From: Cytobacillus gottheilii
GTDB taxonomy: Bacteria; Bacillota; Bacilli; Bacillales; Cytobacillaceae
Direction of reading: 5' to 3'
Length of the DNA: 64,000 bases
NCBI RefSeq assembly: GCF_001636345.1
Contig: NZ_KV440945.1
Span: forward strand, 1,837,631 to 1,901,630
Notes under the pieces: model-generated
Told to the model about the DNA's origin: nothing
Databases searched by the model: none
What the model saw: only the letters and a program-made list of their open reading frames with translations
In this document: positions 13,916 through 59,743 of the stretch, one piece after another
Position numbering within the stretch: the stretch's first letter is position 1
Layout: the number at the start of each line of letters is the position of its first letter
Translations under genes and position numbers: made by a program

Positions 13916-14436
13916 TGGATAATAGAGGTGTGTTTCGGAGCTAAACGCGACTATGAAATCCTATATATGGAAAATTGTGTCGTGGAAATGCTCTAATCAC
14001 GAAGGAATAATCCAATAAATGGATAACAGAGGTGTGTTTCAGAGCTAAACGCGACAGTAAAATGCTATATATGGAAAATAGTGTCGTGGAAATGCTCTAA
14101 TCACGACAGAATAATCCAATAAATGGATAACAGAGGTGTGTTTCGGAGCTAAACGCGACTATGAAATCCTATATATGGAAAATAGCGTCGTGGAAATGCT
14201 CTAATCACGACAGAATAATCCAATAAATGGATAACAGAGGTGTGTTTCGGAGCTAAACACGACAGTAAAATCCTATATATGGAAAATAGTGTCGTGGAAA
14301 TGCTCTAATCACGACAGAATAATCCAAAAAAATGGATAACGGAGGTGTGTTCCGGCACTAAACACGACAGTATAATCCTTTATATGGAAAAAGGTGCCGT
14401 GGAGATGCTTTAATCACACCAGAATAACCTAATAAC
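13916..14436. repeat. 104-bp tandem repeat array (5 units plus a remnant)
   Basis: Units begin TGGATAA at 13916, 14020, 14124, 14228 and 14333, with a broken sixth start at 14437, giving periods of 104, 104, 104, 105 and 104 bp. Units 1-4 are nearly identical; unit 5 is diverged. Each unit holds the dyad GTCGTG/CACGAC (13-nt loop), a second CRCGAC upstream able to pair with the same GTCGTG, and ATCCA/TGGAT across unit junctions. There is no ORF with a ribosome binding site and no gene between pdp and dacF. Confidence 0.9.
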
Positions 14437-14670
14437 TGGATAATAGAGTCCCGTTTCATCTATTAACTAAACTTAGACTAGTTATCCCAGCTCAACCATA
14501 ATAAATCCCCCCTTAAATTTAGAAACTCTAGTTTTGTTCTTTCCCTCAAACCCCAAAAGCTACAAATCACTAACGCTCTCCCACTAATTTAGTCTCTTAT
14601 AGCCTCTATCTTTCCCTATCAAGGTTTCTCCTAAGTGCTCTTCCTCCTCATGAATATTTTTACCGGAATG
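14437..14670. other. Intergenic remainder before the dacF promoter
   Basis: The AT-rich sequence has C-runs but no ORF, hairpin-with-T-tract or promoter that I can support. The first about 30 bp look like a decayed sixth 104-bp unit. Confidence 0.4.
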
Positions 14671-22581: not shown

Positions 22582-24471
22582 GTGTGCCCGGCATGGGTGC
22601 AGGCTCTAGGGTGCGAGTCCCGAACGGCGAAGGCAGTAGTAGCCGTAGCTTAAGACAAGGATATGCGGGGTGACCCTCCTATCTGAAGGAAGTCGGCGGC
22701 AAACTTCCGCTCTGAGGAACACGAATCTCATATGAGGCTAGATGACATTGGGTGAGTCTGCAATACAAGACAAAGTCCATACTGCCAAAGGTGTCACATA
22801 GTAAATGAGGCGGAGACATGGAAGGAAAGTCTGTACTCTTACCCGGGGAGAACCTGTCGATATGCCGTACTCATGCGGTAAGCCTATCCGTGAGGATAAG
22901 TTGAACGACAGGCGTCAGCAGAAGCCATAGTACTTATTCGCTTAAGAGGATAAGGAAGGGCTGAACCGGTTATGGAAAATAGGAACTAGGCGTATCTTTC
23001 CATTCGATGAAACAGAAAACATAGTACCTGTTTAATGAAAGAAACGGTGAATCCGCGGGGGTCATTAAACAGGGTGGAGAATGAAAAGGACACAAACAGA
23101 ACACCTATTTACGCGGGAGGTTATATCAATGTTAATGGAACGAATCATGTCACGGGAAAACCTACTTAATGCGATTAAAAGAGTAGAAAAGAATAAGGGA
23201 AAACATGGAGTGGACGAAATGCCCGTCACTGCTCTTCGTGGACATATTATGCTCAACTGGAGCGAACTGCGAAAATCCCTCTTCGAGGGAACCTATATCC
23301 CATCCCCCGTCCGTCGAGTCGAAATCCCGAAACCAGACGGCAAAGGGAAGAGGAAACTGGGAATCCCAACCGTGACAGACCGTTTCATTCAACAAGCAAT
23401 CACCCAAGTGCTTACCAGAATGTATGACCCTAGTTTCTCTGAATGTAGCTTCGGCTTTCGCCCTAACAGGCGAGCGCACCAGGCTGTTAAATTAGCCCAA
23501 AGCTATATAGAAGAGGGTTATCGATGGGTAGTCGACATTGACCTTGAAAAGTTCTTTGACAAGGTTAACCACGATAGATTAATGAGTAAATTAGCCATGA
23601 GGATAAAGGATAGTACTCTCCTCAAACTAATAAGACGGTTCTTAACCTCTGGTGTTATGGAAGGCGGACTTGTCAGTCCTAACCTTGAGGGGACACCGCA
23701 AGGTGGACCTTTAAGCCCTTTACTTTCGAATATTGTGTTGGATGAACTGGATAAAGAACTGGAGCGCAGAGGACATCGCTTTGTCCGCTACGCCGATGAT
23801 TGTAATATCTATGTGAAATCTAAAAGAGCTGGAGAAAGAGTTATGAAGGCAATGACCCATTTTATCGAGAGGAATCTTAAACTGAAGGTTAACAAGGATA
23901 AAAGTGCTGTAGACCGCCCTTGGAAAAGGAAATTTCTTGGGTTCAGTTTTACAAGTAATCTAAAACCGAAGGTGAGAATATCTCCCCAATCAGTTAAACG
24001 GTTTAAAGATAAAATAAGAAAGCTTACAAGCAGACGAAGGTCAATTGCCATGGAAGATAGGATTCATAACCTTAACCAATATCTAGTGGGATGGGTTAAT
24101 TATTATCATTTAGCAGATACCCGTTCAGTAATCGCAAAACTCGAAGGATGGCTTAATCGAAGGTTAAGAATGATTCGATGGAAGGAATGGAAACTTCCCC
24201 AAACGAAGGTCAAGAAACTTATTAAACTAGGTGTTTCGAAAGGGAAAGCATATGAATGGGGAAATACAAGAAAGGCTTATTGGAGGATATCCAAAAGTCC
24301 AATTCTTCATAAAACATTAGGGAAAGCCTACTGGCTTTCCCTTGGGTTAAAAAGTATTTCTGCTAGATATGACTTACAGCGTTCGACTTAATCGGAACCG
24401 CCGTATACGGAACCGTACGTACGGTGGTGTGAGAGGGATAAATGGAGGTTAATCGCCTCCCCCTATCTCAA
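22582..24471 (+). mobile_element. Group II intron (class C type) with maturase ORF
   Basis: The element begins with GTGTG, fitting the 5' consensus GUGYG, just behind the lysA terminator stem. It contains a reverse transcriptase ORF in domain IV. Downstream, domain V spans about 24396-24429 with arms ACCGCCGTA/TACGGTGGT and contains a CGC triplet. Domain VI follows (arms GGAGG/CCTCC and GGATA/TATC), ending near CTATCTCAAT. The RT lacks an endonuclease domain. All this fits subgroup IIC, which is known to insert behind rho-independent terminators. The exact 3' boundary is uncertain by a few bases. Confidence 0.88.
23081..24391 (+). CDS. ltrA: Group II intron reverse transcriptase/maturase
   Basis: The 436-aa intron-encoded protein has RT motifs in order: KPDGKGKRKLGIPTVTDRF, SFGFRPNRRAHQAV, VVDIDLEKFFDKVNHD, GTPQGGPLSPLLSNIVL and the active-site FVRYADDCNIYV. 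The maturase (X) domain covers about residues 310-390 (LNQYLVGWVNYYHLAD). No HNH endonuclease follows, as in class C elements. The frame opens at ATG 23081. A second ATG at 23129 (MLMERIMSRENLL) has a better ribosome binding site (GGGAGG, 8 nt) and may be the true start. No frameshift is seen, so the element may be active. Confidence 0.93.
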   Translation: MKRTQTEHLFTREVISMLMERIMSRENLLNAIKRVEKNKGKHGVDEMPVTALRGHIMLNWSELRKSLFEGTYIPSPVRRVEIPKPDGKGKRKLGIPTVTDRFIQQAITQVLTRMYDPSFSECSFGFRPNRRAHQAVKLAQSYIEEGYRWVVDIDLEKFFDKVNHDRLMSKLAMRIKDSTLLKLIRRFLTSGVMEGGLVSPNLEGTPQGGPLSPLLSNIVLDELDKELERRGHRFVRYADDCNIYVKSKRAGERVMKAMTHFIERNLKLKVNKDKSAVDRPWKRKFLGFSFTSNLKPKVRISPQSVKRFKDKIRKLTSRRRSIAMEDRIHNLNQYLVGWVNYYHLADTRSVIAKLEGWLNRRLRMIRWKEWKLPQTKVKKLIKLGVSKGKAYEWGNTRKAYWRISKSPILHKTLGKAYWLSLGLKSISARYDLQRST

Positions 24472-24581
24472 TTTTGTGAGACTTCAATTGCACGGCTAAA
24501 AAGCACATGGAAAAATCAGAGCAGATGGTGTACAATGAATCATAGTTTCCATTCACTACAGATTGCAGGAGTATGGTGTAT

Positions 24582-44865: not shown

Positions 44866-44892
44866 GTACCTGTATGATAATTTAATATGGTC

Positions 44893-45066
44893 TATCTTCG
44901 GGGCAGGGTGAAATTCCCGACCGGCGGTGATAAGCGCAATGCTTTAAGCCCGCGAGCCTGATTGTATGGTGTGATGATGCACTTCACTCACAAGCCATAC
45001 GTTAAATTAAGCAGGATTTGGTGCGATTCCAAAGCCGACAGTACAGTCTGGATGGGAGAAGATGGA
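44893..45066 (+). promoter_or_regulatory. FMN riboswitch (RFN element)
   Basis: The conserved RFN blocks are present in order: ATCTTCGGGGCAGGGTGAAA, TTCCCGACCGGCGGT, the GCCCGCGAGC block, a variable arm, GGATTTGGTGCGATTCCAAAGC, and finally GACAGTACAGTCTGGATGGG with AGAAGATGGAG. It should bind FMN and switch off ribU by favouring the terminator at 45127-45157. Confidence 0.96.
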
Positions 45067-45126
45067 GGTTCCGCAAGCGTTCAAAAAATGCAGGATTTTG
45101 AGCGTTTATTAAAGCGTGCCTATTTC

Positions 45127-57228: not shown

Positions 57229-58206
57229 TTGAATGAACAAGAAGCAATCATAATAGGCGGGGGACCGTGTGGCCTGGCAGCTGCCATTGCTCTTCAGGAT
57301 GTCGGAATTAGACCGCTTGTTATCGAAAAAGGGAATATTGTCAATGCCATTTACCATTATCCAACACATCAGACATTCTTCAGTTCCAGCCAAAAACTTG
57401 AAATTGGTGAAGTGCCTTTTATAACAGTGGAACATAAACCAACCCGGAATCAGGCATTAACGTATTATCGTGAAGTAGTTAAAAGAAAGAACCTGGACAT
57501 TCATGCATATGAAAAGGTGTTATCTGTTGCGAAAAAAGAAGATGGACAGTTTATGGTTGTTAGTGACAAACAAACATATAAAACACCATACGTCGTTATT
57601 GCGACTGGATATTATGATCATCCAAATTATATGGACATACCTGGAGAAGATCTACCGAAAGTGTTCCACTATTTTAAAGAGGCTCATCCTTATTTCGATA
57701 AAGATGTAGTGGTTATTGGCGGGAAAAATTCTAGTGTAGATGCTGCTTTGGAATTGGTAAAAGCAGGTGCAAGAGTGACTGTTTTATACAGAGGAGAGTC
57801 TTATTCACCAAGCGTAAAGCCGTGGATCCTTCCCGAATTTGATTCACTGGTCCGGTCGGGTGCGATTTCAATGGTTTTTCAGTCCCATGTAGTAGAAATC
57901 AAAGATGATACAGTCATTTATGAAGTAAATGGTGAGACACATGAAATAGAGAATGATTTCGTCTTTGCAATGACAGGCTATCATCCGGATCATCAATTCT
58001 TAAAGAGCGTTGGAATAGGAATTGATGAAAGTACTGGAAGACCTTTATATACGGAGGAAACGAAGGAGACGAATGTAGAGGGTATTTATATAGCTGGTGT
58101 TATTGCTGCAGGCAATAATGCCAATGAAATTTTTATTGAAAATGGCAGGTTCCACGGAGCTGAAATCGCAGCTTCTATCGTTCAAAAACAAAAGGCTGAT
58201 TCCTGA
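57229..58206 (+). CDS. ypdA: YpdA, bacillithiol disulfide reductase
   Basis: The 325-aa FAD/NADPH-dependent flavoprotein should reduce bacillithiol disulfide. It has an N-terminal FAD motif IIIGGGPCGLAAAIALQDVG (with the conserved Cys), the ATG motif VVIATGYYDHP, the NADPH motif VVVIGGKNSSVDAALELVKAG, and GIYIAGVIAAGNNANEIFIENGRFHG near the end. The start is TTG with GGGGAG about 9 nt upstream; a nearby ATG is out of frame. Its end overlaps its terminator. Confidence 0.9.
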   Translation: MNEQEAIIIGGGPCGLAAAIALQDVGIRPLVIEKGNIVNAIYHYPTHQTFFSSSQKLEIGEVPFITVEHKPTRNQALTYYREVVKRKNLDIHAYEKVLSVAKKEDGQFMVVSDKQTYKTPYVVIATGYYDHPNYMDIPGEDLPKVFHYFKEAHPYFDKDVVVIGGKNSSVDAALELVKAGARVTVLYRGESYSPSVKPWILPEFDSLVRSGAISMVFQSHVVEIKDDTVIYEVNGETHEIENDFVFAMTGYHPDHQFLKSVGIGIDESTGRPLYTEETKETNVEGIYIAGVIAAGNNANEIFIENGRFHGAEIAASIVQKQKADS

Positions 58207-58226
58207 ATGGAACAGCCTTTTGTTGT
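58190..58226 (+). terminator. Terminator overlapping the end of ypdA
   Basis: AAAGGCTG plus TTCC pair with GGAA plus CAGCCTTT across TGAAT, then TTGTTGTT. Confidence 0.82.
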
Positions 58227-58237
58227 TCTCGGGGGGG

Positions 58238-58765
58238 CTGAACAAGCCGCCTCCGCATTTCTACATGTCCAGCTCCGGCGGCTAGCCCCTCGAGGTCTTA
58301 AGCCAATCCAGCCAAAAGGTCAAAGAACGACCTTTCGTCCGACTTGTCTTAAGCTTGTCGGGGCTGAACAAGCCGCCTCCGCATTTCTACATGTCCAGCT
58401 CCAGGCGCTAGGGGCTCGAGGTCATAAGTCAATCCGTCTAGAAGGTTAAAGAACAACCTTCCAGCCGGCTCGCCTTATGCTTGTCGCCCCTGAGCAAGCG
58501 CCTTCCGCTTTTCTACATGTCCAGCTCCGGCGGCTAGCCCCTCGAGGTCATAAGTCAATCTGTCCAAAAGGTTAAAGAACAACCTTCCGGCCAGCTTGCC
58601 TTATGCTTGTCGGGGCTGAACAAGCCGCCTCCGCTTTTCTAATTGTCCAGCTCCAGGCGCTAGGGGCTCGAGGTCATAAGTCAATCCGTCCAGAAGGTTA
58701 AAGAACAACCTTCCGGCCGGCTAGCCTTATGCTTGTCGCCCCTGAGCAAGCGCCTTCCGCTTTTC
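58238..58765. repeat. 126-bp tandem array forming four covarying hairpins
   Basis: Left-arm starts recur at 58238, 58364, 58490, 58616 and 58742, an exact 126-bp period. The right arm of each unit pairs with the left arm of the next, giving 101-nt hairpins at 58277-58377, 58403-58503, 58529-58629 and 58655-58755. Hairpins 1 and 3 use GGCGGCT-AGCCCC with GGGGCT-AGCCGCC; 2 and 4 use AGGCGCT-AGGGGC with GCCCCT-AGCGCCT. Inner stems are CTTAAG or CATAAG/CTTATG and AAGGTT/AACCTT (AAAGGTC/GACCTTT in hairpin 1). Linkers are 25 nt. The sequence is GC-rich, unlike its surroundings. No gene is contained. Confidence 0.93.
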
Positions 58766-59743
58766 TTATAACCCAAACATTTTTTCGATTTCGGGTTTGG
58801 TTTGTTGGTTGGCTAGGCCGATCATTAGTTTTAGGCGGGCTTTTTGGCCGTTTAGTCCGTTGGAGAAGATGACACCTAGTTCTTTTAAGTGTTTGCCTCC
58901 GCCTTCGTAACCATAGACATCCTGGGCGATACCGTTAAAGCACCGTGAAACAATGACAACGGGAATGTTGGCAGCTGTCATTTCTTTAATCCCATCAATT
59001 GCAGCAGGAGGAAGGTTTCCTTGACCGAGTGCCTCAATAACCACACCATCATAATTGAGTTCTTTAATGGCGTGCAGGAGGGTAGAATCCATTCCGGCGT
59101 GTGCTTTCAATAGTGCTACCTTTTGGTTTAAATCCTTAATTTCATAAAGCTCTTTTTTTGTTGGCATATGATGGAAAAGAATACCTCGTTTCGTTACAAT
59201 ACCAATTGGTCCATATTGCGGGCTTTGGAATGTAGAAACATTACTGGTATGCGTTTTTGTGACATTTTTGGCTGTATGTATTTCATCATTTAGAACAACC
59301 AGAACGCCTTTGTAATGAGCCTCTTCACTCATTGCAACCCTTATAGAGGAAATTAGATTATACAGTCCATCAGAGCCAATTTCATTGCTTGAACGCATGG
59401 CACCAGTTAGTACAACCGGCAGCTGCACATCAACTGTTAAATCCAGAAAATAGGCTGTTTCCTCCAATGTGTCAGTCCCATGTGTAATGACAACACCAGA
59501 AACATCTTTCCTTTTCACGTGATCTTCAATCAAGTTCTTTAATATGTTCATTTCTTTTACCGTAATATGAGGCGAAGGTAAATTAAAGGGCTCCTCTACT
59601 ATAAGATCAGCAAGGGCATGCAATTCATTTGTTTTATCTGTTAATGGGTTTTTTTCATTTGTTGAGACTGCACCGGTTGAGCTGTCTTCACTCATAGATA
59701 TGGTGCCTCCTGTATGTATAAGCAGAATTTTTTTTCGATTCAA
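58766..59743 (-). CDS. ansA: L-asparaginase, type I
   Basis: The 325-aa enzyme hydrolyses asparagine to aspartate and ammonium. Both active-site signatures are present: IHTGGTISM with the nucleophile Thr near residue 12, and VITHGTDTLEETAYFL with the second Thr and Asp. LTGAMR is also typical. The start is TTG at 59743 with GGAGG 9 nt upstream. It is the only minus-strand gene in this stretch and its stop lies 10 nt from the repeat array, whose hairpins may end its transcript. The aspartase gene ansB is not adjacent. Confidence 0.93.
   Translation of the reverse strand: MNRKKILLIHTGGTISMSEDSSTGAVSTNEKNPLTDKTNELHALADLIVEEPFNLPSPHITVKEMNILKNLIEDHVKRKDVSGVVITHGTDTLEETAYFLDLTVDVQLPVVLTGAMRSSNEIGSDGLYNLISSIRVAMSEEAHYKGVLVVLNDEIHTAKNVTKTHTSNVSTFQSPQYGPIGIVTKRGILFHHMPTKKELYEIKDLNQKVALLKAHAGMDSTLLHAIKELNYDGVVIEALGQGNLPPAAIDGIKEMTAANIPVVIVSRCFNGIAQDVYGYEGGGKHLKELGVIFSNGLNGQKARLKLMIGLANQQTKPEIEKMFGL

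Follow-up and report, generated by a model that had tools for sequence, protein, structure and literature searches.

Families of structured interspersed repeats described from bacteria include the REPs, palindromes of 20–40 bp marked by GTAG or CGTC tags (PMC3733652), and the BIMEs, in which the orientation of the units alternates (PMC2817692). In the Bacillus cereus group, the interspersed intergenic repeats bcr1–bcr18 have been reported, some of which are structured and transcribed in UTRs, and the presence of bcr3 within a transcript correlates with the decay rate of the mRNA (PMC3446304). Bacillus halodurans carries Bhal-1, a 74-bp intergenic stem-loop family of 36 copies (PMC2267715), and the MRSC are multi-copy structured motifs that show covariation and an inconsistent gene orientation (PMC11109978). 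The hairpin repeat of Cytobacillus gottheilii analysed here resembles these structured interspersed repeats (REP/BIME, bcr, MRSC) but departs from REPs, BIMEs and MITEs in the features compared. Like the REP/BIME and RAYT systems it is high-copy, intergenic, palindromic and often clustered; its unit, however, measures 122 nt at a period of 126 instead of the 20–40 bp of a REP palindrome, and the units stand head to tail in one orientation in the arrays read, unlike the alternating units of a BIME. In contrast to a MITE, the complementarity of its ends, GAAAAGCGGA and GGAGCTRGACA, is by eye limited to AGC/GCT. It shares with the MRSC the many copies, the covarying fold and the inconsistent gene orientation, whereas the example shown for that class, MRSC-65-2, consists of one long stem with UYCCGG; the present units are rods with conserved loops and are arranged in heteromeric tandem arrays. 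MRSC may be associated with transposase, integrase, nuclease or helicase genes; here a link to a transposase was not found among the Y1 genes of one genome. The bcr repeats are described from the B. cereus group, and Bhal-1 is described as shorter than the present unit.

The window, meaning the whole stretch of 64,000 nucleotides that was analysed (contig NZ_KV440945.1 of assembly GCF_001636345.1), holds an array of this repeat between two convergent genes: ansA on the minus strand (58766..59743), encoding an asparaginase (Pfam PF00710, PF17763), and on the plus strand (57229..58206) the gene of a pyridine nucleotide-disulphide oxidoreductase which, following an earlier note, we take to be ypdA. 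The original prediction of an exact 126-bp array of four hairpins was confirmed: the window has four full units, which recur every 126 bp without deviation. On the minus strand the array begins with GAAAAGCGGA immediately 3′ of the ansA stop codon, and its four 122-nt units with their 4-nt linkers span 58765–58266. Unit 1 (58644..58765, 0 nt from the stop codon) and unit 3 (58392..58513) carry the arms AGGCGCT/AGGGGC, unit 2 (58518..58639) and unit 4 (58266..58387) the arms GGCGGCT/AGCCCC, and of a truncated fifth unit on the same strand the 5′ part alone is seen in the sequence (58234..58261). The array is the sense-oriented 3′ flank of ansA, bounded on the other side by the inverted repeat AAAAACAAAAGGCTG/CAGCCTTTTGTTGTT (58184..58227), a probable bidirectional terminator common to ypdA and ansA, and this position makes it plausible that the array is transcribed by read-through from ansA. 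In a survey of the genus (36 genomes searched, 30 loci fetched, 28 readable), two ansA loci had the array behind the gene, namely those of the window's genome and of a second C. gottheilii genome, G522, whose AnsA is 98% identical in amino acids. It was absent within up to 260 nt 3′ of the stop codon in the other 26, many of which show by eye a terminator-like hairpin after the stop, in several relatives a similar AAAGGCTG...CAGCCTTT hairpin.

The arms of neighbouring units in this array do alternate between two compensating versions, every partner arm matching, and the inner stem covaries as had been claimed. The original prediction had, however, paired the right arm of each unit with the left arm of the next; the hairpins as such stand, but when the array is cut at the linker the arms pair within their own unit, which forms one long rod interrupted by internal loops and a 5-nt bulge. 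The folding of either strand is better than that of each of 100 shuffled sequences (z −7.2 for the plus and −7.7 for the minus strand). In the test for an intrinsic terminator, a T run was absent from the linker that follows a unit on the folding strand; terminator-pattern matches in the array region numbered 3 against 1.4 expected, the sole minus-strand match being an inner stem, and the complement strand has one weak terminator-like match at 58748–58762. None of the four gathering-level matches that Rfam 15 gave in the window lies on the array, and a comparison of 58100–58900 with Rfam up to an E-value of 10 returned only sub-gathering matches, none of which was judged real. Other features of the window include a group II intron (22664–24472, plus strand) and an FMN riboswitch (44890–45067, plus strand), both by Rfam models, and about five tandem 104-bp copies matching at 90% (13916–14448) that bear no obvious relation to the hairpin array.

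The expectation that related structure-keeping repeats occur in many copies between genes of Bacillaceae relatives was borne out. A blast search of the window's genome found the repeat at 47 places, and a covariance model was built from an alignment of 38 of its units, kept out of 53 first matches after leaving out chance matches, opposite-strand matches and units of other length. With this model the same genome gave 89 matches at E ≤ 0.01, many of which are weak echoes from the opposite strand; a single-copy occurrence is thereby excluded, and the second C. gottheilii genome gave 130 at E 1e-6 or better. Of the 101 genomes sampled from the window's family, 99 had matches (24 of 25 genera), and matches were found in 148 of 199 of its order (74 of 98 genera). 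The class sample had 29 positive genomes among 250, 15 of the same order and 14 of one family of another order, and the phylum sample three among 299, all of the same order as the window. Copy numbers per genome are "at least" values in many of the sampled genomes, and some positive genomes have one or two matches only. The hairpin repeat is a large family that is apparently undescribed so far: among the open papers listed, a literature outside which most subscription journals lie, unit fragments were not met in any on bacterial repeats, the matches that did occur being mostly primers matching short fragments or unrelated, and topic searches of the open literature on bacterial repeats gave no name for it. 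A phage collection contained no match to the unit and a plasmid collection one matching record, from Cytobacillus spongiae. An exact pattern of the unit core matched one IMG/VR contig classed as viral (L278); the inner stem of the unit that it holds (1–119) is paired almost throughout.

Several members of the family deviate from the common form. Degenerate units scoring 46–56 bits in the window's genome (at 418886, 1408592, 1577535, 2762609, 4085385 and 162413) are apparently decaying family members. In the second C. gottheilii genome (G522:C4:356318-360932), a normal unit alternates with a lower-scoring variant unit in about 14 repeats of a 312-bp period. Chimeric units, found at L020, L021 and L028 of the window's genome and at L102 (4293–4413), L178 and L185, carry a second module in place of the 5′ half of the P2 stem; this module has CCAC..GTGG hairpins, and a GCAGAC/GTCTGC stem encloses one of them. 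The idea of a CsrA sponge, raised by the CCACAGGAYGTGG hairpins of the chimeric units, was dropped, since the window's genome has four exact matches to the motif, two pairs that all fall at two chimeric loci.

Family units are about 122 nt long, with linkers of a few nucleotides, and fold into a rod of stems with a GNA/GNA 3x3 loop, a 5-nt bulge, an internal loop and a terminal loop. The original prediction that structure and not sequence is preserved was half right: the stems vary, but the GNA/GNA loop and the internal loop (CGACARGC opposite GACCYCGAG) are nearly invariant and the terminal loop is conserved. In the 38-unit alignment 96.0% of the cells pair, 20 of the 35 pairs have changed on both sides, and the covariation score is 0.399 against 0.151 in shuffled and at most 0.095 in slid alignments; further pair types are not in excess (33 vs 32.3 in shuffles). 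RNAalifold on its own recovers a nearly identical structure. Among 114 distinct units of other genomes, whose alignment was fitted to the model and hence leans towards it, both partners have changed in 33 of 35 pairs, with a score of 0.608 (0.179 shuffled). A wider set of 317 aligned units included 282 kept as full (at most four gaps, outer arms readable), and all 13 outer pairs are present in 230 of these, 12 in 29 and fewer in 23, so arms that change without compensation are not general, although 52 units lack at least one pair; one uncompensated hybrid unit was seen at L002.

The deviations from Watson-Crick pairing are biased towards one strand; since a G-U pair on one strand is an A-C mismatch on the other, the minus strand is the better folded one in the window. 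Over the 35 pairs, the 38 units of the window's genome have 1235 Watson-Crick, 38 G-U and 1 A-C cells, with 48 purine-purine and 4 pyrimidine-pyrimidine cells; in the wider set, whose 258 distinct units lean to the consensus as all loci were drawn from best-scoring matches, the corresponding counts are 8276, 347, 48, 253 and 74. This bias arises mostly in the inner stems and is weak in the outer arms, whose 13 pairs have 42 G-U, 23 A-C, 49 purine-purine and 35 pyrimidine-pyrimidine cells in the 258 units. In the same units G8.A114 (245) and A10.G112 (246) enclose one free position and form the GNA/GNA loop, G29.A98 (248) and A30.G97 (245) are nearly invariant, and position 41.85 is A.G in 140, G.A in 77 and A.A in 27. 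At 33-95, A-T in 219 units is replaced by G-C in 17, and at 52-74 G.U is the commonest state (116 units). Inspection of the internal loop by eye as a possible kink-turn led to this idea being dropped. DNA cruciforms or symmetric protein-binding dyads, offered earlier as possible roles, leave the one-strand excess of G-U and G.A unexplained.

The alternation of neighbouring arms is local and not general in the family. After the further removal of identical pairs that recurred and of units forming fewer than 12 of the outer pairs, cross-pairing between the arms of neighbours amounted to 8.28 of 13 against 9.59 expected in the window's genome (p 0.010, 16 pairs), 9.64 against 9.61 in the second C. 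gottheilii genome (p 0.55, 21 pairs) and 9.28 against 9.59 in four genomes pooled (p 0.18, 47 pairs). Selection for alternating arms was set aside, as only the window's genome shows a significant effect and the count of same-arm neighbours there (2 vs 3.7) gives p 0.23. Positions 9, 113, 118, 121 and 122 in the linker and stem base are more alike within than between arrays, whereas the arms are not clearly so, and hence the arrays look mosaic rather than like fresh tandem duplications.

By simple ORF calls, the arrays examined lie between ORFs. The context set comprised 103 arrays, including a few near-duplicate loci from close genomes, and 100 of them had an upstream ORF, to which 45 are sense and 55 antisense; hence most copies are not sense 3′ UTRs. 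Relative to the stop codon, 31 of the sense arrays start at −3 to +5 nt (11 of 15 sense arrays of the window's genome and 20 of 30 elsewhere), compared with one of the 55 antisense arrays that starts as near to a start codon. When a simple detector was run on 220 nt to either side of these 31, it found terminators behind 13 of the arrays and ahead of none.

Sites are largely retained between the two C. gottheilii genomes. Both flanks of 26 of 28 arrays of the window's genome were located in the other genome, where 23 sites hold a unit, two a remnant (L006, L027) and one is empty (L015); covariance-model matches were found by script at 21 of the 26, and L004 and L026 were added on the basis of matches in the same-place loci L161 and L178 and of units legible in the sequence. 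A clean recent insertion was not found among the 26 sites, and the empty one shows at most an imperfect 6-nt duplication. Unit numbers and content differ between orthologous sites. From 18 loci, 30 orthologous unit pairs were compared, 19 of them close (at most 12 differences). In the close pairs 3 of 513 core sites, which had been picked beforehand as family-invariant, 52 of 1327 paired sites and 42 of 475 other sites have changed; in all 30 pairs the figures are 18 of 806, 207 of 2094 and 113 of 749. Eight base pairs in the close set changed on both sides with pairing kept, against 1.0 expected, 11 changed through a G-U step, and 25 were broken by a single change. Such in-situ compensation, exemplified by L012/L180, L007/L167 and L017/L175, suggests that selection acts at the site, although this constraint could be mimicked or reinforced by gene conversion between copies.

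The folding strand is oriented with respect to chromosome replication. With the origin placed at dnaA and the terminus set opposite, it is head-on to the fork in 31 of 39 arrays of the window's genome and in 38 of 52 of the second C. gottheilii genome, whose orthologous sites overlap with the former. Nine genomes pooled give 119 of 159 arrays head-on, or 81 of 107 without the second C. gottheilii genome, the share per genome ranging from 5/9 to 11/12; five of the nine are not significant singly (G063 7/12, G089 6/7, G200 8/10, G416 5/9, G455 5/9). Arrays were merged by hand for this count, which in seven genomes covers the best-scoring matches listed only. It omits contig C3 of the second C. 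gottheilii genome, echoes on the opposite strand, fragments next to arrays, and four weak places of the window's genome, at 1536248, 1836097, 2834731 and 3794750, half of which are head-on. The antisense preference does not account for the replication bias, because 9 of the 15 sense arrays of the window's genome are head-on, and hence behind lagging-strand genes, compared with 38 lagging ORFs among 159 sampled (p 0.003).

The reading we favour, with a probability of roughly 55%, is that of a dispersed, slowly turning-over structured repeat whose propagation or retention is related to the replication fork and whose single-stranded fold, probably as RNA, is under selection. The element would spread or survive by way of a fork-dependent process and otherwise behave as a semi-domesticated repeat, and behind genes such as ansA it would form a transcribed, structured 3′ UTR upstream of the terminator. 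The strand-specific fold would more likely be selected as RNA than as single-stranded DNA, and the reason for this selection may be a factor that binds the conserved loops.

A mobile repeat acting purely as single-stranded DNA, of the REP or IS200/IS605 type, would be the substrate of an HuH (Y1) enzyme and have no RNA role, which we consider unlikely. It would suit the dispersed, multi-copy occurrence with mixed gene orientation, the replication-strand bias and the possible imperfect target duplication at L015. Energy favours it as well, in that the same strand is more stable in 262 of 263 units with DNA parameters; RNA parameters favour this strand in 251 of 263, so RNA and single-stranded DNA are not separated by energy, and the comparison was dropped as a test between them. 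The window's genome has two Y1 transposase genes, L216 and L217, but neither lies near a unit among the matches listed, and unlike in a REP/RAYT arrangement the palindromic repeat behind the RAYT-like gene L216 (near 597181), GGGACAGGTTCCTCGACCC...GGGTCAAGGAACCTGTCCC, is another one. IS200/IS605 elements prefer the lagging-strand template, opposite to the folded strand here, which is the leading-strand template, and the predominance of G.U at 52-74 would be odd for DNA.

Doubtful, too, is a host-functional RNA selected site by site, in which the arrays would be structured antisense RNAs or 3′ UTRs that protect, terminate or mark transcripts. The RNA-like character and strand specificity of the pairs and loops, arrays that begin at stop codons and before terminators, and the retention of sites with a slowly evolving core all speak for it, whereas the 55 antisense arrays among 100 and the occurrence of the ansA array in two of 28 readable loci of the genus speak against it. 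There is also little sign of a fixed gene set: locus pairs with a common flanking protein number 17, several of which are overlapping or near-duplicate loci, and a gene-specific regulon was dropped since flanking genes recur little. An improbable further reading is an RNA device against head-on transcription, whose units would fold best in transcripts that run against the fork, lying sense behind lagging-strand genes and antisense behind leading-strand genes; there the transcript would be stopped, cut or marked by a factor bound to it. Maintenance of the palindromes by template-switching (quasi-palindrome correction) or as double-stranded cruciform dyads, without any strand-specific selection, fits the weak strand bias of the outer arms and their blockwise changes (GCG to CGC, GGG to CCC) with few wobble intermediates and may be an added influence there, but as the sole cause it is largely refuted and very improbable, since it would treat both strands alike, against 347 G-U and 48 A-C cells over all pairs, and would erase the conserved G.A mismatches that persist.

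The repeat matters because it is present in most sampled genomes of one order (148 of 199), its loops are conserved and almost all of its pairs covary, and it has no match in Rfam and was not found by its sequence fragments among the open papers searched. Its strand-specific fold raises the question of which factor binds the loops, and its orientation to replication raises the question of whether the direction of the fork governs where structured repeats land or survive.
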